Shown here: positions 1-6,972 of the stretch, piece by piece
Layout of the letters: every line of letters begins with the position of its first letter
How positions within the stretch are numbered: the stretch's first letter is position 1
NCBI RefSeq assembly: GCF_002261355.1
Contig: NZ_NEVU01000002.1
Span: 558,001 to 622,000, forward strand
DNA length: 64,000 bases
Reading direction: 5' to 3'
Source of the DNA: Bordetella genomosp. 12
Lineage (GTDB): Bacteria; Pseudomonadota; Gammaproteobacteria; Burkholderiales; Burkholderiaceae_B
Made by a program: the position numbers and the translations under genes
Notes under the pieces: model-generated
What the model saw: only the letters and a program-made list of their open reading frames with translations
What the model was told of the DNA's origin: nothing
The model's database searches: none

Positions 1-1376
1 TGGCCCGCGCTTTGGGCGAAATCTTCGCTCACAAGGTCGATTATGCGGACCTGTATTTCCAGTACACCCGCAGCGAGGGCTGGAGCCTAGAAGAGGGGAT
101 CGTGAAGACGGGCAGTTTTTCCATTGGCCAAGGCGTGGGGGTGCGGGCCATCAGCGGCGAGAAAACCGCGTTTGCTTACTCGGACTCACTGTCGCCCGCG
201 GCGTTGCTGTCTTCGGCGCATGCGGTGCGAAGCATTGCGCGCCAGGGCGCGGGCAAGGTCAAGGTCGCCGCTCACCGCCCGGTTCAAGACAGCCGCAGCC
301 TCTATGCTGATATCGATCCGCTGGCCACGCTCAGCGCGGCCGACAAAGTGGCCTTGCTCGAACGTCTCGAACGCATGGCCCGGGCGCGTGATCCACATGT
401 CATTCAAGTGATGGCTGGATTGGGTGCGGAGTATGACGTCGTACTTGTTGCCGGCAGTGACGGGCGCCTGGCGGCGGATGTCCGGCCGCTGGTACGGCTG
501 TCCTTGACCGTGATCGCCGAGCGCAACGGGCGGCGCGAAATGGGGCACGCGGGCGGCGGCGGGCGCAGCGGCCTGGCGTATTTTTCGGATGAAATCCTGC
601 GCGATTACGTCGAGCGCGCCGTGCACGAAGCCCTGGTAAACCTCGAGGCGCGGCCGGCCCCGGCGGGAGAAATGCCTGTTGTGCTGGGTTCGGGTTGGCC
701 CGGCATTCTGTTGCATGAAGCCGTCGGTCATGGCTTGGAAGGCGATTTCAACCGCAAGGGTTCGAGCGTGTTTTCGGGCCGTATCGGCCAGCGCGTGGCT
801 TCCAAAGGCGTGACGGTCATCGATGACGGTACCCTGGAGGGCCGGCGCGGTTCGCTCAATATCGATGACGAAGGCAATGCCTCGCAACGCAATGTCCTCA
901 TCGAAGACGGGATTTTGCGGGGGTATATGCAGGACACGCTCAACGCCCGGCTGATGAAGACCCAGGCCACCGGCAATGGCCGGCGCGAGTCCTTCGCTCA
1001 CCTGCCCATGCCGCGCATGACCAACACCTATATGTTGAGTGGCGACAAAGTCCCCGAGGAGATCATCGCATCGGTCAAGAAAGGTCTGTACGCCGTCAAT
1101 TTCGGGGGCGGCCAGGTCGACATCACCAGCGGTAAATTCGTGTTTTCCGCTTCCGAAGCCTACATGATCGAAAACGGCAAGGTGACCTATCCGGTCAAGG
1201 GTGCGACGCTGATCGGCAATGGCCCTGATGCGATGAACCGGGTCAGCATGATCGGCAACGACATGCGCCTGGATTCCGGCGTGGGCACGTGCGGCAAAGA
1301 AGGCCAGAGCGTGCCAGTCGGCGTCGGTATGCCGACGTTGCGCATGGATGGCCTGACGGTCGGCGGCACGGCCTGA
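1..1376 (+). CDS. tldD: TldD metalloprotease subunit (5' end outside window)
   Basis: This is the C-terminal ~457 codons of TldD, the zinc-protease subunit that works with TldE/PmbA in the cytosol to degrade unfolded or modified peptides such as microcin precursors and antitoxins. The reading frame is open to the left edge (codons before the first possible start read A-R-A-L-G-E), so the true start lies upstream; E. coli TldD is about 481 residues, hence only 20-30 residues are missing. The metal-binding HEAVGH (HExxxH) motif is encoded at 714-731. The start of the protein (VDYADLYFQ) and the [16 protein letters not shown] block are typical of TldD rather than TldE. The stop is followed about 60 bases later by the leader region of the DAHP synthase gene. 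Confidence 0.93.
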
Positions 1377-1401
1377 GGGCCAGGCCGCGTAAGACTTCCG
1401 G

Positions 1402-1430
1402 ATGACGGGGGCGTTTTTTTGTGCTAGAGT
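1402..1430 (+). promoter_or_regulatory. Candidate promoter for the aroG leader transcript
   Basis: A -35-like ATGACG (1402-1407) and a -10-like TAGAGT (1425-1430) are 17 bases apart, and a TG one base before the -10 box makes it an extended -10. Initiation about 7-9 bases downstream would fall at 1437-1439, right at the ATG of the leader peptide, so the leader mRNA could be leaderless. This is inference from consensus similarity only. Confidence 0.4.
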
Positions 1431-1438
1431 TTTTCCCT

Positions 1439-1522
1439 ATGAAATTCGCGTCCCCCGCCTTTTATTTTTATTTTTATGGTTTTCTGAAGCCGCTGGCGGA
1501 GGAAGGGACGCGCTCAACCTAG
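1439..1522 (+). CDS. Phe/Tyr-rich leader peptide of the DAHP synthase gene
   Basis: A 27-codon open frame, ATG at 1439 and TAG at 1520-1522, encodes a peptide whose residues 8-15 are F-Y-F-Y-F-Y-G-F, with a further Phe at position 3. Eight aromatic codons in 27, clustered 5' of an intrinsic terminator and directly upstream of a DAHP synthase gene, is the layout of the classic transcription-attenuation leaders (compare PheL of enterobacteria). The peptide itself probably has no function: its translation reports Phe-tRNA and Tyr-tRNA charging. Ribosome binding is weak (an AGAG at 1426-1429) or the message is leaderless. It is too short for ordinary gene callers. Confidence 0.85.
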   Translation: MKFASPAFYFYFYGFLKPLAEEGTRST

Positions 1523-1569
1523 TACAGAATCCCCCCGAAAAAGCCGCCAGCGTCACTGGCGGCTTTTTT
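1447..1569 (+). promoter_or_regulatory. Transcription attenuator (pause hairpin, antiterminator, terminator) of aroG
   Basis: Three mutually exclusive pairings can be read directly. (1:2) CGCGTCCC at 1447-1454 pairs with GGGACGCG at 1505-1512, and the inner CCGCC at 1455-1459 pairs with GGCGG at 1495-1499. (2:3) CGCTGGCGG at 1491-1499 pairs perfectly with CCGCCAGCG at 1544-1552 as antiterminator. (3:4) AAGCCGCCAG at 1541-1550 pairs with CTGGCGGCTT at 1556-1565 to give the terminator. A ribosome stalled on the Phe/Tyr codons (about 1460-1485) would cover strand 1, free strand 2 and block the terminator, so aroG is expressed when aromatic aminoacyl-tRNAs are scarce. Confidence 0.85.
1541..1569 (+). 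terminator. Intrinsic terminator of the aroG attenuator
   Basis: A perfect 10-bp stem (1541-1550 with 1556-1565), a 5-base loop and a run of six T form a strong rho-independent terminator about 75 bases before the aroG start. Its 5' arm is also the target of the antiterminator. Confidence 0.9.
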
Positions 1570-1643
1570 GTTGCCGTCAGCCTGGTGGGTTTGCGGGAAC
1601 GACCCCAAGCAATCCATACCGACCCCACCCCAGGAGTACAACC

Positions 1644-2717
1644 GTGTCACATAATACCGACGACCTTCGCATTCGAGAAATCAAAGAACTGAACCCGCCC
1701 GCGCACGTCATGCGCGAGTTCCAGTGCACCAAGGAAGTGTCGGAAACGGTGTTTGCGTCCCGCAATGCCATGCACCGCATCCTGCACGGCATGGATGACC
1801 GCCTGATCGTCGTCATCGGCCCGTGTTCCATCCACGACACCGAAGCGGCGCTGGAGTACGCACGCCGGCTCAAGCCGCTGCGTGACAAACTGGCGGCCGA
1901 TCTCGAGATCGTGATGCGCGTCTATTTCGAGAAGCCGCGCACCACCGTGGGCTGGAAGGGGCTGATCAACGATCCCAACCTGGATGGCAGCTTCGACATC
2001 AACAAGGGGGTGCGGGTGGCGCGGGAACTGCTGCTCGAAATCAACAGCCTGGGCTTGCCGGCGGGGTGCGAGTTCCTGGACATGATCACGCCGCAGTACA
2101 TCGCGGACCTGGTGGCCTGGGGGGCGATAGGCGCGCGCACGACGGAAAGCCAGGTGCACCGTGAACTGGCCTCCGGTTTGTCTTGCCCGGTGGGTTTCAA
2201 AAACGGTACGGACGGTAATGTGAAGATCGCCGTGGATGCCATCAAGGCCGCCTCGCAGCCGCATCATTTCCTGTCGGTGACCAAGGGCGGCCACTCGGCC
2301 ATCGTGTCGACGGCGGGCAACGAAGACTGTCATGTCATTTTGCGCGGCGGCAAGGTCCCCAACTACGACGCCGCCAGCATCGAAGCGGCCTGCCAGGATC
2401 TGTCCAAGGCGGGCCTGGCGCAGCGCATCATGGTCGATGCCAGCCACGCCAACAGCAGCAAGAAGCCCGAGAACCAGCCACTGGTCGCCGACGACATCGC
2501 GCGCCAGATGGAGCGGGGCGATTCGCGCATCGTGGGCATCATGATCGAGAGCCATCTGGTCGGCGGTCGGCAAGACCTCGTGCCCGGGCAGGCTCTCACC
2601 TATGGTCAAAGCATCACCGACGGCTGCATTGATTGGGAGGCGTCGGTTCAGACGCTGGAGCGACTGGCGCAGGGCGTGCGCGAGCGCCGCCGTGTGGCGC
2701 TGGTCAGCGGCAAATAA
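1644..2717 (+). CDS. aroG: 3-deoxy-7-phosphoheptulonate (DAHP) synthase, class I
   Basis: Condenses phosphoenolpyruvate and erythrose 4-phosphate in the first step of the shikimate pathway. The 357 residues match the usual length of E. coli AroF/G/H (~350). All four metal ligands of the E. coli enzyme are at the same numbers: Cys61 (GPCSIHD), His268 (DASHANSSK), Glu302 (MIESH) and Asp326 (SITDG). Ser180, the position tied to Phe feedback in E. coli AroG, is also Ser here, which hints at but does not prove Phe sensitivity. The start is GTG at 1644, preceded by AGGAG at 1630-1634. The gene lies behind a Phe/Tyr attenuator and is followed by a hairpin, so it is probably monocistronic. The isozyme letter is uncertain. 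Confidence 0.95.
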   Translation: MSHNTDDLRIREIKELNPPAHVMREFQCTKEVSETVFASRNAMHRILHGMDDRLIVVIGPCSIHDTEAALEYARRLKPLRDKLAADLEIVMRVYFEKPRTTVGWKGLINDPNLDGSFDINKGVRVARELLLEINSLGLPAGCEFLDMITPQYIADLVAWGAIGARTTESQVHRELASGLSCPVGFKNGTDGNVKIAVDAIKAASQPHHFLSVTKGGHSAIVSTAGNEDCHVILRGGKVPNYDAASIEAACQDLSKAGLAQRIMVDASHANSSKKPENQPLVADDIARQMERGDSRIVGIMIESHLVGGRQDLVPGQALTYGQSITDGCIDWEASVQTLERLAQGVRERRRVALVSGK

Positions 2718-2724
2718 AGCTCCG

Positions 2725-2750
2725 GGAAAGCCCGCGTACCGGGCTTTTCC
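2725..2750 (+). terminator. Hairpin terminator after aroG
   Basis: GGAAAGCCC (2725-2733) pairs with GGGCTTTTCC (2741-2750) with one bulged base. It is followed at once by a second inverted repeat (TTCCGGCCTG / CAGGCCGGAA, 2747-2770). The T tract is short. Confidence 0.6.
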
Positions 2751-2822
2751 GGCCTGCCAGCAGGCCGGAATCGCTGGCGGTCGGCGTAGAATGGCCGGAT
2801 ACCAACCTCTCTTTTTCTCGCC

Positions 2823-4232
2823 ATGAACGCACCCCTGCATTCCGAAACCCTGCGCCGCCCCGTACCCGCCGCCTGTCTGGACGGGCTGAAAGCGATTTTT
2901 GGCGAGCGCTTGTCGGTGGCTGCGGCGGTGCGCGAGCATCATGGCCGGGATGAATCGCCTTACCCGCCCATGCTGCCCGACGCGGTGGTCTTTGCCCACT
3001 CGACCGAAGAGGTCGCGCAGGTGGCCCAGCTGTGCAATACGCACCGCGTGCCCCTGATTCCTTACGGTGCCGGCTCTTCGCTGGAGGGCCATTTGCTGGC
3101 GGTGCAGGGCGGCATCAGCCTGGATCTGTCGCAGATGAACCAGGTGCTGGCCGTCAATGCCGAAGACCTCACCGCCACGGTGCAGGCAGGCGTGACGCGC
3201 AAGCAACTGAACGAGGAAATCCGCAGCACCGGCTTGTTCTTCCCGATTGACCCGGGCGCGGATGCCAGCCTGGGCGGGATGGCGGCGACGCGGGCCTCGG
3301 GCACGAACGCCGTGCGCTACGGCACCATGCGCGAAAACGTCATGTCGCTGACCGTGGTCACGGCAGACGGCCGCATCGTGCGCACCGCCGGTCGCGCGCG
3401 CAAGTCGTCGGCAGGCTACGACCTGACGCGTATCTTCGTCGGTAGCGAAGGCACGCTGGGCATCATCACCGAAGTCACCATCCGGCTCTATCCGCAGCCC
3501 GAAGCGGTGTCGGCGGCCATCTGCAACTTCCCGTCCCTGGACGACGCGGTGCAAAGCGTCATCGAGATCATTCAGATGGGCGTGCCCGTGGCGCGGGTCG
3601 AGTTCATGGATGCGGCGGCAGTCAAGGCGGTCAATCTCCACAGCAAGCTGTCGCTGCGTGAGACACCCATGCTGGTGTTCGAGTTTCATGGCAGCCCGGC
3701 TGGCGTGCAGGAGCAGGCCGAGACGGTGCAGGCCATCACTGCCGAGCACAGCGGTATGGATTTCGAGTGGGCCGAGCGGCCCGAGGATCGCAACCGCCTC
3801 TGGACCGCGCGGCACAACGCGTATTTCGCGGGGCTGCAGCTGCGCCCGGGCTGCCGTGCCAGCACGACCGATGTGTGCGTGCCGATTTCACGCCTGGCCG
3901 ATTGCGTGCGCGAAACCGTAGACGAACTGGACCGCGCCAGTTTCCCCTACACCATCGTCGGCCATGTGGGAGACGGCAATTTCCACGTGCTCATGCTGCT
4001 CGATGGCGACAATGAGACCGAGTGGCAGGAGTCGGAAACCATTAATCACAATTTGGTGCGCCGCGCGATCGCCGCCGATGGCACCTGCACCGGCGAGCAC
4101 GGCGTCGGCCTGCACAAGATGCAGTTCATGGCCGAGGAGCACGGCGAAGACGCCCTGGCGCTCATGCGCAGCCTCAAGCATGCCTTCGACCCCAACAACA
4201 TCCTCAACCCCGGCAAGATCTTCGCCTGGTGA
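2823..4232 (+). CDS. FAD-linked D-lactate dehydrogenase-like oxidoreductase
   Basis: A 469-residue member of the vanillyl-alcohol-oxidase flavoprotein superfamily, closest by eye to D-lactate dehydrogenase (cytochrome)/GlcD-type enzymes that oxidise 2-hydroxyacids. The N-terminal FAD_binding_4 part has the pyrophosphate loop PYGAGSSLEGH and the GADASLGGMAATRASGTN segment. The C-terminal FAD-oxidase domain has GHVGDGNFH and TCTGEHGVGLHK, which in the family hold the catalytic and metal-binding His and Glu residues, and it ends in the usual DPNNILNPGKIF. The 469 residues fit LDHD-like proteins. It stands alone between two terminators, just before the glcDEF operon, so a role in 2-hydroxyacid metabolism is plausible; the substrate cannot be told from sequence. 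Confidence 0.85.
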   Translation: MNAPLHSETLRRPVPAACLDGLKAIFGERLSVAAAVREHHGRDESPYPPMLPDAVVFAHSTEEVAQVAQLCNTHRVPLIPYGAGSSLEGHLLAVQGGISLDLSQMNQVLAVNAEDLTATVQAGVTRKQLNEEIRSTGLFFPIDPGADASLGGMAATRASGTNAVRYGTMRENVMSLTVVTADGRIVRTAGRARKSSAGYDLTRIFVGSEGTLGIITEVTIRLYPQPEAVSAAICNFPSLDDAVQSVIEIIQMGVPVARVEFMDAAAVKAVNLHSKLSLRETPMLVFEFHGSPAGVQEQAETVQAITAEHSGMDFEWAERPEDRNRLWTARHNAYFAGLQLRPGCRASTTDVCVPISRLADCVRETVDELDRASFPYTIVGHVGDGNFHVLMLLDGDNETEWQESETINHNLVRRAIAADGTCTGEHGVGLHKMQFMAEEHGEDALALMRSLKHAFDPNNILNPGKIFAW

Positions 4233-4355: not shown

Positions 4356-5855
4356 ATGACTTCACTCGTCGAAGCCGGCCTGAGCCATACCCAGGCGCCA
4401 TTTTCTCCGCGGACGCTGGTACAGGCACTGCAGGCTGTCTTGCCGGCGCATTGCGTGCTGCATCGGGAGGAAGATACGCGTCCATACGAGTGCGATGGCC
4501 TGTCTTTATTCAGGGCGCTGCCGGCAGCGGTCGTGTTGCCGGAAACCGAAGCCCAGCTGCGCGACGTGTTGCGCCTGTGTAAACGGCTCAACGTGCCCGT
4601 GGTGGCGCGAGGCGCGGGCACGGGATTGTCGGGCGGTTCGATGCCGCATGCGCAGGGCGTCCTGCTGGGCATGTCCAAATTCAACCGCATCCGGCGTATC
4701 GATCCGGCGGCCGGCCTGGCCGTGGTCGAACCGGGGGTGCGCAATCTGGCGATATCGGAGGCGGCCGCGGCCTATGGCCTGTACTACGCGCCGGACCCCT
4801 CGAGCCAGATCGCATGTTCGATCGGCGGAAACGTGGCCGAGAATTCCGGGGGGGTGCATTGCCTGAAGTACGGCCTGACGGTGCACAACGTGCTCAAGGT
4901 CCGCCTCATCACCATCGACGGTGAGGTGGTCGAGTTGGGTAGCGAGGCGCCGGACGCGCCCGGGCCCGAACTCTTGCCTCTGTTCATCGGTTCCGAGGGT
5001 ATGCTGGGCGTGGTCAGTGAAGTGACGGTAAAGCTCATTCCCAAGCCGGCCTGCGCGCAGGTGGTGATGGCGAGTTTTTCCAGCGTGGAGGCCGCGGGCA
5101 ATGCGGTCACGCAGATCATTGCCGCGGGCATCATTCCGGCCGGGCTGGAGATGATGGACCGGCAGGCGACGCACATGGTCGAGCCTTTTGTTCGCGCCGG
5201 CTATGACCTGGATGCGCAGGCCATCCTGCTGTGCGAGTCGGATGGCACGGCAGAGGAAGTCGCTCACGAGATCGAGCGGATGGAAGCCATCTTCCGCGCC
5301 GCGGGGTCCACGCGTTGCCAGGTGTCGGCATCGGAGGCCGAACGTCTGCGGTTCTGGGCCGGCCGTAAAAATGCCTTTCCGGCGGCGGGCCGTGTCTCGC
5401 CGGATTACTACTGCATGGATGGCACGATTCCGCGCCGCCATCTGGCGCGGGTGCTCAACGCCATCGAGCAGATGGAAGATGAGTTCGGCCTGCGTTGCGC
5501 CAACGTGTTTCATGCGGGGGACGGCAATCTGCATCCCCTGATTCTGTTCGATTCCAACAAGCCGGACGAGGTCGAGCGCGCTGAAAAATTCGGCGCCGCC
5601 ATCCTCGAACTGTGTGTGCAAGTCGGAGGCACCGTGACAGGAGAGCACGGTGTGGGTATGGAGAAAATAAATCAAATGTGCGTGCAATTTTCGCGTGACG
5701 AGCTTGACGCATTTCTGGCGGTCAAGCGGGCATTCGACCCGCCCGGCCTGCTGAATCCCGAAAAAGTGATTCCAACCCTGGCACGCTGCGCCGAGTACGG
5801 CAAGATGCATGTGCACGCGGGAGAGATGCGGTTTCCTGATCTGGCACGATTCTAA
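4356..5855 (+). CDS. glcD: Glycolate oxidase subunit GlcD
   Basis: The FAD-binding subunit of membrane-associated glycolate oxidase, which turns glycolate into glyoxylate and passes electrons to the respiratory chain. The 499 residues equal E. coli GlcD. The FAD pyrophosphate loop reads ARGAGTGLSGG, followed by PSSQIACSIGGNVAENSGG; the C-terminal half has FHAGDGNLHPL and TVTGEHGVGMEK. It is the first gene of glcD-glcE-glcF: glcE begins 13 bases downstream with its Shine-Dalgarno (AAGAGG) overlapping the glcD stop, so the genes are translationally linked. No GlcC-type regulator or glcB is next to it. Confidence 0.95.
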   Translation: MTSLVEAGLSHTQAPFSPRTLVQALQAVLPAHCVLHREEDTRPYECDGLSLFRALPAAVVLPETEAQLRDVLRLCKRLNVPVVARGAGTGLSGGSMPHAQGVLLGMSKFNRIRRIDPAAGLAVVEPGVRNLAISEAAAAYGLYYAPDPSSQIACSIGGNVAENSGGVHCLKYGLTVHNVLKVRLITIDGEVVELGSEAPDAPGPELLPLFIGSEGMLGVVSEVTVKLIPKPACAQVVMASFSSVEAAGNAVTQIIAAGIIPAGLEMMDRQATHMVEPFVRAGYDLDAQAILLCESDGTAEEVAHEIERMEAIFRAAGSTRCQVSASEAERLRFWAGRKNAFPAAGRVSPDYYCMDGTIPRRHLARVLNAIEQMEDEFGLRCANVFHAGDGNLHPLILFDSNKPDEVERAEKFGAAILELCVQVGGTVTGEHGVGMEKINQMCVQFSRDELDAFLAVKRAFDPPGLLNPEKVIPTLARCAEYGKMHVHAGEMRFPDLARF

Positions 5856-5868
5856 GAGGCGGGTTCTG

Positions 5869-6972
5869 ATGGAATTCGTCCTGTCGGATTTGTGCGATCA
5901 GGTCATGACCGCGCGCGCCGGCCACAAGCAGCTCATCATCGCGGGAGGAGGCAGCAAGCGCTTCTACGGCAATGCGCGCCATGGCCCGCCCGGTCACTAT
6001 GTCCTGGACATGACCGCCTATCGTGGCATCGTGAATTACCAGCCCTCGGAGTTGGTGGTGACTGCGCGAGCGGGCACGCCGCTGGCCGAGCTGGAGGCCG
6101 CGCTGGCGCAAGAGGGCCAGATGCTGGCCTTTGAACCCCCGCATTTCGAGTCGGGCGCGACCGTGGGCGGCTGCGTGGCAGCAGGGCTGGCCGGGCCACG
6201 GCGCCAGGCTTGCGGCGGTGTGCGGGATTATGTGCTGGGTGTGCGGCTGCTGGACTCGCAGGGCCGCTTGCTGTCTTTCGGCGGCGAGGTCATGAAAAAC
6301 GTCGCCGGCTACGATGTGTCGCGTCTGATGAGCGGATCGCTGGGTATTTTCGGTGCCTTGCTCGAGGTCTCCCTGAAGGTGGTGCCCAAGCCGGTGCAAG
6401 AGATCACGCTGCAGGGCCGGGGCACGCAGGCCGAGGCGCTGCAGCGCTTTGCCCAATGGCGCCGGCTGCCATTGCCGCTATCGGCGACGGCCTGGGTGCC
6501 GGATGGCGATGGCGGAGAGGGGGGAAGCTGGACGGCGCGGCTGTCCGGATCCGCGCCCGCCTTGCGCGCCGCGCGGCAGCAGGTGGGCGGGACCGAAGTC
6601 GAAACTGCCGCGGCCGGCGCTTTCTGGCAGGCGCTGCGTGAGCAGACGCATGCATTTTTTCAGGGCGGGGTGCCGCTGTGGCGCCTGGCGGTCGCGCCAA
6701 CCGCCCCGCCGCTGGCATTGGGGCCGATGTTGCTGGAATGGGGCGGGGGGCAGCGCTGGCTGAGCGCGCGCGCCGATGCGCAGACGGTGCGTGCTGCGGC
6801 CCAGGCCGCTGGCGGCCATGCCACCTTGTTCCGCGCCCAGGGCGGGGCAGTGCCTGCCGATGGCGTTTTTCATCCTCTGGCACCCGCCGTGGCGCAGATC
6901 ACCCGCCGCCTCAAACAGGAGCTCGATCCCGCGGGCCTGTTCAACCCCGGCCGCATGGTGCTGGAGTTATAG
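5869..6972 (+). CDS. glcE: Glycolate oxidase subunit GlcE
   Basis: The second flavin-binding subunit of glycolate oxidase. The 367 residues (E. coli GlcE is 350) contain an FAD_binding_4 domain with IIAGGGSKRFYG as nucleotide-binding loop and SGATVGGCVAAGLAGP. It lacks most of the C-terminal oxidase domain of GlcD, as expected, and ends in DPAGLFNPGRM. ATG 5869 is chosen over the longer open frame from 5809 because it has an AAGAGG ribosome site and starts with the conserved part of the protein. It lies 9 bases before glcF. Confidence 0.93.
   Translation: MEFVLSDLCDQVMTARAGHKQLIIAGGGSKRFYGNARHGPPGHYVLDMTAYRGIVNYQPSELVVTARAGTPLAELEAALAQEGQMLAFEPPHFESGATVGGCVAAGLAGPRRQACGGVRDYVLGVRLLDSQGRLLSFGGEVMKNVAGYDVSRLMSGSLGIFGALLEVSLKVVPKPVQEITLQGRGTQAEALQRFAQWRRLPLPLSATAWVPDGDGGEGGSWTARLSGSAPALRAARQQVGGTEVETAAAGAFWQALREQTHAFFQGGVPLWRLAVAPTAPPLALGPMLLEWGGGQRWLSARADAQTVRAAAQAAGGHATLFRAQGGAVPADGVFHPLAPAVAQITRRLKQELDPAGLFNPGRMVLEL

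Follow-up and report, generated by a model that had tools for sequence, protein, structure and literature searches.

A putative ribosome-mediated attenuator with an aromatic leader peptide upstream of DAHP synthase genes in Bordetella and other Proteobacteria

The AroG-type DAHP synthase gene of Bordetella genomosp. 12 is preceded by a short open reading frame (ORF) rich in Phe and Tyr codons and by three alternative RNA pairings, and we consider it very probable that this element is a ribosome-mediated transcription attenuator setting the supply of the entry enzyme of the aromatic pathway. This reading is based on computed evidence, namely the ORF, the pairings, conservation, gene context, the geometry of a folding model and covariation. 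From these we infer a response to starvation, a response to each single amino acid (with Tyr and, elsewhere, Trp sensed by the leader) and a leaderless start of the transcript. The window analysed is the whole stretch of 64,000 nucleotides, and positions are counted from its first letter (table 1).

Leader, pairings and switch geometry in the window

Both the 27-codon leader with its FYFYFYGF run and the aroG-type gene downstream, described in the first-pass annotation, were recovered. Indeed, the gene exceeds the cut-off of the NCBIfam AroG equivalog model NF006723 (583.1 bits versus 568), and 121 bases separate the leader stop from its start. The leader thus has a cluster of end-product codons, as in trp/phe/leu-type attenuators, and no Shine–Dalgarno-like tetramer was found in the sequence 5' of its ATG (1439). 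Downstream of aroG, an ORF at 2823-4232 matches glycolate oxidase GlcD models below their cut-offs, and the ORFs at 4356-5855 and 5809-6972 are GlcD/GlcE-like by eye.

Table 1. Position of the leader, its pairing strands and the flanking genes in the window.
Feature	Position	Strand	Basis or remark
tldD (upstream gene)	ends 1376		
Probable extended -10 promoter element, TGC-TAGAGT	1422..1430	+	sequence; family-wide -10 spacing
Predicted transcript start	1437-1439	+	at or adjoining the A of the leader ATG
Leader peptide ORF	1439..1522	+	27 codons plus TAG (1520-1522); homologues in relatives
Strand 1, at the start of the leader ORF	1447..1459	+	partners 1495-1499 and 1505-1512
Control codons F Y F Y F Y G F (codons 8-15)	1460..1483	+	sequence; stall simulation
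Strand 2, CGCTGGCGG (1491-1499) and GGGACGCG	1491..1512	+	partner strand 1 or strand 3
Strand 3, AAAAAGCCGCCAGCG	1538..1552	+	partner strand 2 (antiterminator) or strand 4 (terminator)
Strand 4, CTGGCGGC, and T run (3' half of intrinsic terminator)	1556..1569	+	
DAHP synthase, AroG type, GTG start	1644..2717	+	AGGAG at 1633-1637

The three mutually exclusive pairings proposed earlier (1:2, 2:3 and 3:4) are correctly placed, and folding provided their energies: -24.8 kcal/mol for the hairpin 1:2, -20.6 for the 2:3 duplex of 1491-1499 with 1544-1552 (-23.1 for 1486-1553), and -20.7 for 3:4, which joins 1538-1550 to 1556-1568 and continues into the T run. The arms of the intrinsic terminator are GCCGCCAG (1543-1550) and CTGGCGGC (1556-1563), followed by T. 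The region 1425-1575 folds 3.9 sd better than its dinucleotide shuffles, none of 200 being equal. The output of a generic terminator scan did not include the 3:4 terminator and reported instead a weaker hairpin (1395-1411; 1395-1420 with its T run), located 3' of tldD and immediately 5' of the probable -10 box.

In the full-length RNA at equilibrium, 3:4 is preferred (P 1.00) at every ribosome position tried, so that antitermination must be kinetic. Before strand 4 is made and without a ribosome, 2:3 is predicted rather than 1:2 (P 0.98), and default termination therefore rests on 1:2 forming first. Real strand 1 pairs better than the mean of 10 strand-1 shuffles in 159 of 184 relatives, with 2:3 beating 1:2 at equilibrium in the window. 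A ribosome was modelled as masking the RNA as far as 12 bases beyond the first nucleotide of the codon in its A site. Under this stall model, before strand 4 is made, 2:3 has a probability of 1.00 when the A site holds any of codons 8-14, which drops to 0.83 at F15 and to 0.05 at L16, 2:3 being free over codons 1-14; the FY codons thus lie within the permissive zone, with the switch point directly behind them. When any upstream partner is counted, strand 3 of the window is paired again when the ribosome stands at codon 19 (P 1.0) or codon 20 (P 0.5).

We therefore propose a mechanism of a classical kind. RNA polymerase would begin at or next to the leader ATG, and the ribosome would initiate on the 5' AUG. 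When charged tRNA-Phe or tRNA-Tyr is short, the ribosome would wait on the FY run and cover strand 1, leaving strand 2 free to pair with strand 3 before strand 4 is made, and transcription would proceed into aroG. When both are plentiful, it would reach the stop codon and hide or disrupt strand 2, and 3:4 would terminate transcription. If no translation takes place, 1:2 would form first, making termination the default.

Conservation, covariation and the start of the transcript

Within the GTDB family of the window, which includes Bordetella by name (locus L207), 121 genomes were searched, the enzyme was detected in 117 and 110 upstream regions were read. A leader was called when an ORF starting with ATG, 15-35 codons long and containing a stretch of 8 residues of which 4 or more are aromatic, was followed by a GGYGGY-T motif, and 97 of the 110 regions carried such an aromatic leader with its terminator end, including one weak leader (L108) that was kept. 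This conservation speaks against a chance ORF. A stem finder allowing no gaps did not recover the terminator in 14 of these 97 rows and picked only part of the stem in others; pattern search found the GGYGGY-T end in all 97. The 13 regions lacking the leader are spread over genera g8, g15, g23, g27 and g39, and genomes of g8 and g39 measure 0.8-0.9 Mb, a size typical of reduced symbionts. Four g8 genomes (G007, G048, G078 and G101; 0.8 Mb) keep DAHP synthase and have no leader, as might be expected at symbiont size. A covariance model built from 67 family leaders (R1) gave one full-length match in the window's own genome and, up to E 10, five further partial matches to the terminator end, none better than E 0.036 and one lying antisense to the window terminator. 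The second DAHP synthase of this genome (L002, G000:C2:1334400-1335440; 60% identical) shows no aromatic leader.

For geometry, covariation and composition we used 184 leaders: 97 from the family, 33 from other families of the order and 54 from named loci. A script counting any upstream partner of strand 3, and calling a codon permissive at P ≥ 0.5, classed as permissive 817 of 861 Phe, 391 of 413 Tyr and 75 of 82 Trp codons (95% of Phe and Tyr and 91% of Trp codons in this folding model), versus 1381 of 3205 other codons. A stall in the middle of the run gave a mean P of 0.92 in the family and 0.98 in the others, falling to 0.63 and 0.60 when the intervening segment was shuffled. With the ribosome at the stop codon, the mean P was 0.04 in the family and 0.14 in the others, and P stayed below 0.5 in 178 of 184 leaders. 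In the folding model, a stall at the control codons thus frees strand 2 and a ribosome at the stop codon does not, with 38 exceptions among the 184 leaders (22/97 in the family, 5/33 in the rest of the order and 11/54 at named loci) in which the first blocked codon precedes the last aromatic one.

Strand 2 was located by its GGYGG core in 165 of the 184 leaders, 19 being without it. This core stands in one codon phase in 147 of the 165 and in the other two phases in 10 and 8, and the peptide ends around it differ (PLAEEG, AIGGG, SLRRR). RNAalifold on a 67-row alignment recovered the terminator and missed 2:3 and 1:2, as can happen with mutually exclusive structures; the pairs were consequently tested by anchoring on GGYGG and CCGCC. 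The covarying position involves three bases: in strand 2 the one immediately 5' of GGYGG, in strand 3 the one immediately 3' of CCGCC, and in strand 4 the partner of the latter. Over the 165 leaders, this triple reads U-A-U in 76, C-G-C in 13 (families f3, f9, f11, f39 and f49 and three named loci) and A-U-A in 2. In 22 of the 165 leaders, 3:4 is kept there and 2:3 is not (A-A-U 10, C-A-U 8, G-A-U 4), and the U-A-A triple of 30 family members corresponds, by reading of the alignment, to a bulged A in strand 4. Pairing at this position reaches 0.82 for 2:3 (shuffled 0.74) and 0.72 for 3:4 (0.61), a level equalled by none of 2000 column shuffles, which ignore relatedness; yet C-G-C recurs in several families. 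Outside the family, the values are 0.74 (shuffled 0.61) and 0.94 (0.73). At the next position outwards, 23 of 2000 shuffles equal the 2:3 pairing over all leaders, and outside the family covariation is not significant there (254/2000); on the other side of the core (y1-z1), no covariation was found over the 165 leaders (0.18 versus 0.19).

A mutually exclusive terminator and antiterminator, as in ribosome-mediated attenuators, are thus indicated both by folding and by the covariation of strands 2-3-4. The first-pass annotation had asked whether the same leader and pairings recur in related genomes, and had named a lack of peptide conservation and covariation there as grounds against the attenuator; as the peptide is conserved and the base pairs covary, this computational part of the refutation did not come true.

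Two readings lose most of their ground here. The hairpin could be a mere tldD terminator preceded by a chance ORF, with the aroG promoter further downstream; tldD does end just upstream (table 1), and a generic scan reported no consensus promoter in 1000-3500. However, leader, strand 2 and terminator are conserved as a set 5' of DAHP synthase in different lineages, and the spacing between a -10-like box and the leader ATG is maintained, so that we reject this reading as scarcely credible. Alternatively, the FYFYF peptide itself could stall the ribosome in response to free aromatic amino acids, after the precedent of TnaC, on which free Trp stalls ribosomes (PMC8429421). Here, the order of residues is not fixed, F, Y and W being permuted between lineages, whereas most leaders maintain the spacing to strand 2; moreover, a high amino acid level would then presumably turn a biosynthetic gene on, which is the wrong sign. 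Such a nascent-peptide arrest is very improbable and was likewise rejected.

A hexamer was scored as a -10-like box when it agreed with TATAAT at 4 or more of its 6 positions and its 3' end lay 5-9 bases upstream of the ATG. Such a box occurs in 93 of 97 family leaders (12 and 11 at control distances; 19.0 in shuffles, maximum 30). The rhizobial or Devosia-like leaders have it in 11 of 13 cases (none at either control distance), the other leaders of the order in 17 of 33 (controls 5 and 4) and the named leaders in 23 of 53 (controls 3 and 7). Position -1 is a pyrimidine in 89/97 family, 27/33 other order and 48/53 named leaders, for control means of 53.4, 19.1 and 29.6, respectively. Shine–Dalgarno-like tetramers precede 2 of 86 leaders outside the family and 38 of 97 within it, many of the latter reading as the AGGA of a TAGGAT -10 box. 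These patterns suggest that leader transcripts start at the leader AUG, the indication being strong in the family and in rhizobia and less clear elsewhere.

Distribution and aromatic composition

R1 matched 39 of 200 genomes of the order and, outside the family, 26 of the 27 loci read lay just 5' of DAHP synthase. Sixty further order-level upstream regions, none previously returned as loci, were read; nine of them (L147, L148, L169, L177, L191, L195, L197, L202 and L205) carry, by reading, an aromatic leader with a CCGCC..GGCGG terminator, and the other 51 have no leader, indicating a patchy distribution. Five of the 60 (L148, L177, L191, L202 and L205) do have an R1 match upstream. As a null for the same 60 regions, ORFs with 5 aromatic residues in 8 were found in nine on the true strand and in none on the reverse strand, two of these nine (L187 and L198) having no CCGCC..GGCGG terminator.

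A broader model, R2, matched upstream of the enzyme at E 1.1e-4 or better in 59 of the best 80 named enzyme loci, a few of which come from the same genomes as rows behind the model. The matched loci belong to the Burkholderia group (Burkholderia, Paraburkholderia, Caballeronia, Trinickia, Cupriavidus), to Janthinobacterium, Rugamonas, Massilia and Oxalobacter (the leader thus also precedes the enzyme in Oxalobacteraceae), to Xanthomonas, Stenotrophomonas, Dyella and Rhodanobacter, and to Bradyrhizobium, Mesorhizobium and Devosia; among the best 80, none is labelled Achromobacter or Alcaligenes. R2 also matched 73 of 100 genomes in the family of G274, whose enzyme is a close relative of that of Cupriavidus lacunae in the enzyme tree, as well as 34 of 299 genomes across the phylum and, under stricter filters, 5 of 274 across the class. 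Of the matches from these three scans read with their neighbouring gene, 63 of 64 lie 5' of DAHP synthase. The remaining one (L346) is a Phe-only pheL leader before the chorismate mutase-prephenate dehydratase gene pheA, a useful contrast since a single-amino-acid leader there stands before a terminal-branch gene. A search of plasmids for the element found none.

In the enzyme tree (FastTree; 109 of 137 rows after removal of same-label near-copies), Xanthomonadales and rhizobial/Devosia sequences share one fork (support 87), which adjoins the fork of the window's family (38 rows, support 98); this tree marks L215, L261 and L276 as without a leader although R2 matches them. Such a topology fits either a sideways spread of gene and leader together or an old shared module. 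Three further loci were observed. L141 (G234, another family of the order) has an F/Y/W leader at 1570-1644 (-) with an attenuator-like terminator, and the gene behind it (826-1440 (-), 204 aa) is not a DAHP synthase and has no Pfam match above cut-off; it is possibly an unknown-function member of an aromatic regulon. Two DAHP synthase genes lie in tandem behind one leader match at G268:C1:2562486-2564626 and at G141:C1:2636366-2638529. Finally, in L270, from a metagenome-assembled genome labelled Anaerolineae, DAHP synthase is preceded by an ORF rich in F, Y and W (MSRYFSFFSWYGYFAAGQ...); the hairpin is of another kind, and R2 gives no match there up to E 1.

The composition of the 184 leaders, which were selected by aromatic density as such and not by any single residue, points beyond Phe and Tyr. 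The 54 named loci counted are those left of 80 after setting aside L207 and L221 as family members, L215, L261, L264 and L276 as giving no clear leader (three match R2 at 1.1e-4 or better, L264 at 0.025), L249 and L270 as having an aromatic ORF without the CCGCC..GGCGG terminator, and 18 more that had none; in the order, L147 and L202 are not counted, as their peptide, as typed, could not be recovered starting from an ATG. Leaders combining Phe, Tyr and Trp make up 14 of 97 in the family and 58 of 87 outside it (20/33 in other families of the order, 38/54 at named loci), including all 13 rhizobial or Devosia-like and all 9 Xanthomonadales leaders; an FYW leader is also present in genus g385 (L332-L334). 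In family leaders, Phe is mostly encoded by TTT (424 of 532 codons), whereas four neighbouring genes favour TTC (35 versus 17). Among the 64 leaders chosen by R2, a model trained on related leaders and with five genomes overlapping the 184 set, 52 have all three aromatics and 63 have Tyr.

These results bear on the main alternative, a Phe-only attenuator in which Tyr, and elsewhere Trp, would be tolerated neighbours without regulatory effect. Phe indeed outnumbers the other control residues in the family (97 leaders: 532 F, 217 Y and 15 W). In Corynebacterium glutamicum, the aroR leader (Phe-Tyr-Phe) precedes the DAHP synthase gene aroF (PMC11802643, PMC4046766), and Phe limitation raises transcription while Tyr availability is described as having no effect (PMC11802643); in Ralstonia solanacearum, lacZ fusions of aroG1 and aroG2 are repressed by 1 mM Phe (PMC6379268). 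Nevertheless, Tyr is present in 181 of 184 leaders (97/97 in the family, 84/87 in the others), 179 of these 181 place one or more Tyr codons within the permissive zone, and Tyr exceeds Phe in the 13 rhizobial or Devosia-like leaders (33 Y, 21 F, 16 W); the pheL leader of L346 shows that Tyr is dispensable in a leader of this type. A Phe-only response is therefore possible and, in our opinion, rather unlikely.

The attenuator with a Phe/Tyr leader before aroG, as annotated in the first pass, is thus well supported by the conserved peptide and the covarying pairings, whereas Phe and Tyr are probably not the whole signal, and a response of one switch to Tyr is a prediction, Tyr having had no effect on the C. 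glutamicum leader, the closest studied case. As the alternating F/Y run is one version of this wider F/Y/W leader, the natural signal is probably all three aromatics and, as many relatives combine their codons, the general device is probably a pan-aromatic sensor. Given the 58 of 87 non-family leaders with Phe, Tyr and Trp, the Phe/Tyr leader of the window is probably a form that lost Trp, which its family would mostly have dropped. We lean, with some reserve, towards a full model in which a leader mRNA devoid of a Shine–Dalgarno sequence and read from its own AUG would jointly sense the charging of tRNA-Phe, tRNA-Tyr and tRNA-Trp, would match the entry enzyme to the scarcest end product and would travel with aroG (Burkholderiales, Xanthomonadales, rhizobia), the window's family having later narrowed it to Phe and Tyr.

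Relation to known systems and biological meaning

The mechanism is of a classical kind; novelty lies in which gene is controlled, in the mixing of aromatic codons, in the wide occurrence of the leader and in a start that is probably leaderless. Leaders reading several amino acids are known from ilvGMEDA (Ile, Val, Leu) and thrA (Thr, Ile), in which a single attenuator likewise has codons for more than one end product of a branched pathway; in the aroG leader the end products are aromatic rather than aliphatic, and the target is the common-pathway entry. None of the literature matches listed (open-licence PMC papers) describes a proteobacterial aroG or DAHP-synthase leader. The C. glutamicum aroR leader (Neshat et al. 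2014) is alike in design, with Phe and Tyr codons directly 5' of DAHP synthase and ribosome stalling raising expression (PMC11802643, PMC4046766). It differs in belonging to an actinobacterium and in its short F-Y-F motif, the passages cited mentioning no Trp and reporting no Tyr effect; in most proteobacterial leaders the run is longer, and Trp is often part of it.

The pheL-pheA attenuator of gammaproteobacteria (Rfam Phe_leader, RF01859) likewise relies on a leader ORF with Phe codons and differs in reading Phe only and in preceding another gene; R2 reaches one pheL-type leader weakly (L346, MKLFPFFFAFFFTFP, E 5.1e-4). The window belongs neither to this Rfam family (21.7 bits, for a gathering score of 55) nor to Thr_leader (28.2 versus 55). 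Indeed, no Rfam leader family reaches its cut-off at the window or in 31 related loci, where the sole gathering matches are one SRP RNA and one tRNA. A putative attenuator before the pheA-tyrA operon of B. parapertussis appears in a table covering tyrA operons only (PMC1173090).

The trpL of Sinorhizobium meliloti is a leaderless leader ORF beginning at the AUG of its transcript (PMC10117765), as predicted here for the aroG leader, and differs in being a tryptophan attenuator before trpE. Its terminated RNA, rnTrpL, is a dual-function sRNA (PMC10117765), which raises the question of whether a trans-acting leader RNA could be the main product before aroG, attenuation being secondary. The conservation is however explained by attenuation in cis, and we regard a predominantly trans-acting role as very improbable.

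For the cis-acting attenuator, the two aroG genes of R. solanacearum offer a case of interest. They are 58% identical, each rises when the other is deleted, and aroG1 increases approximately 15-fold in rich and 10-fold in limited medium upon deletion of aroG2 (PMC6379268); the word 'leader' is absent from the main text of that paper. A leader of this kind could bear on the repression by Phe and on this mutual induction, though both genes react alike, so that another regulator may act there.

In Escherichia coli, DAHP synthase genes are controlled by TyrR and TrpR, and attenuation operates at pheA (PMC5343134), so that the contrast with the enterobacterial rule drawn in the first-pass annotation (TyrR at aroG/F, attenuation at pheA) holds. 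Many Proteobacteria appear to use one RNA switch before an enzyme that E. coli controls via TyrR/TrpR, and FY and FYW leaders constitute ready-made test pairs. If all three aromatics are read, this switch would be a compact answer to the problem of balancing a common-pathway enzyme against several end products.
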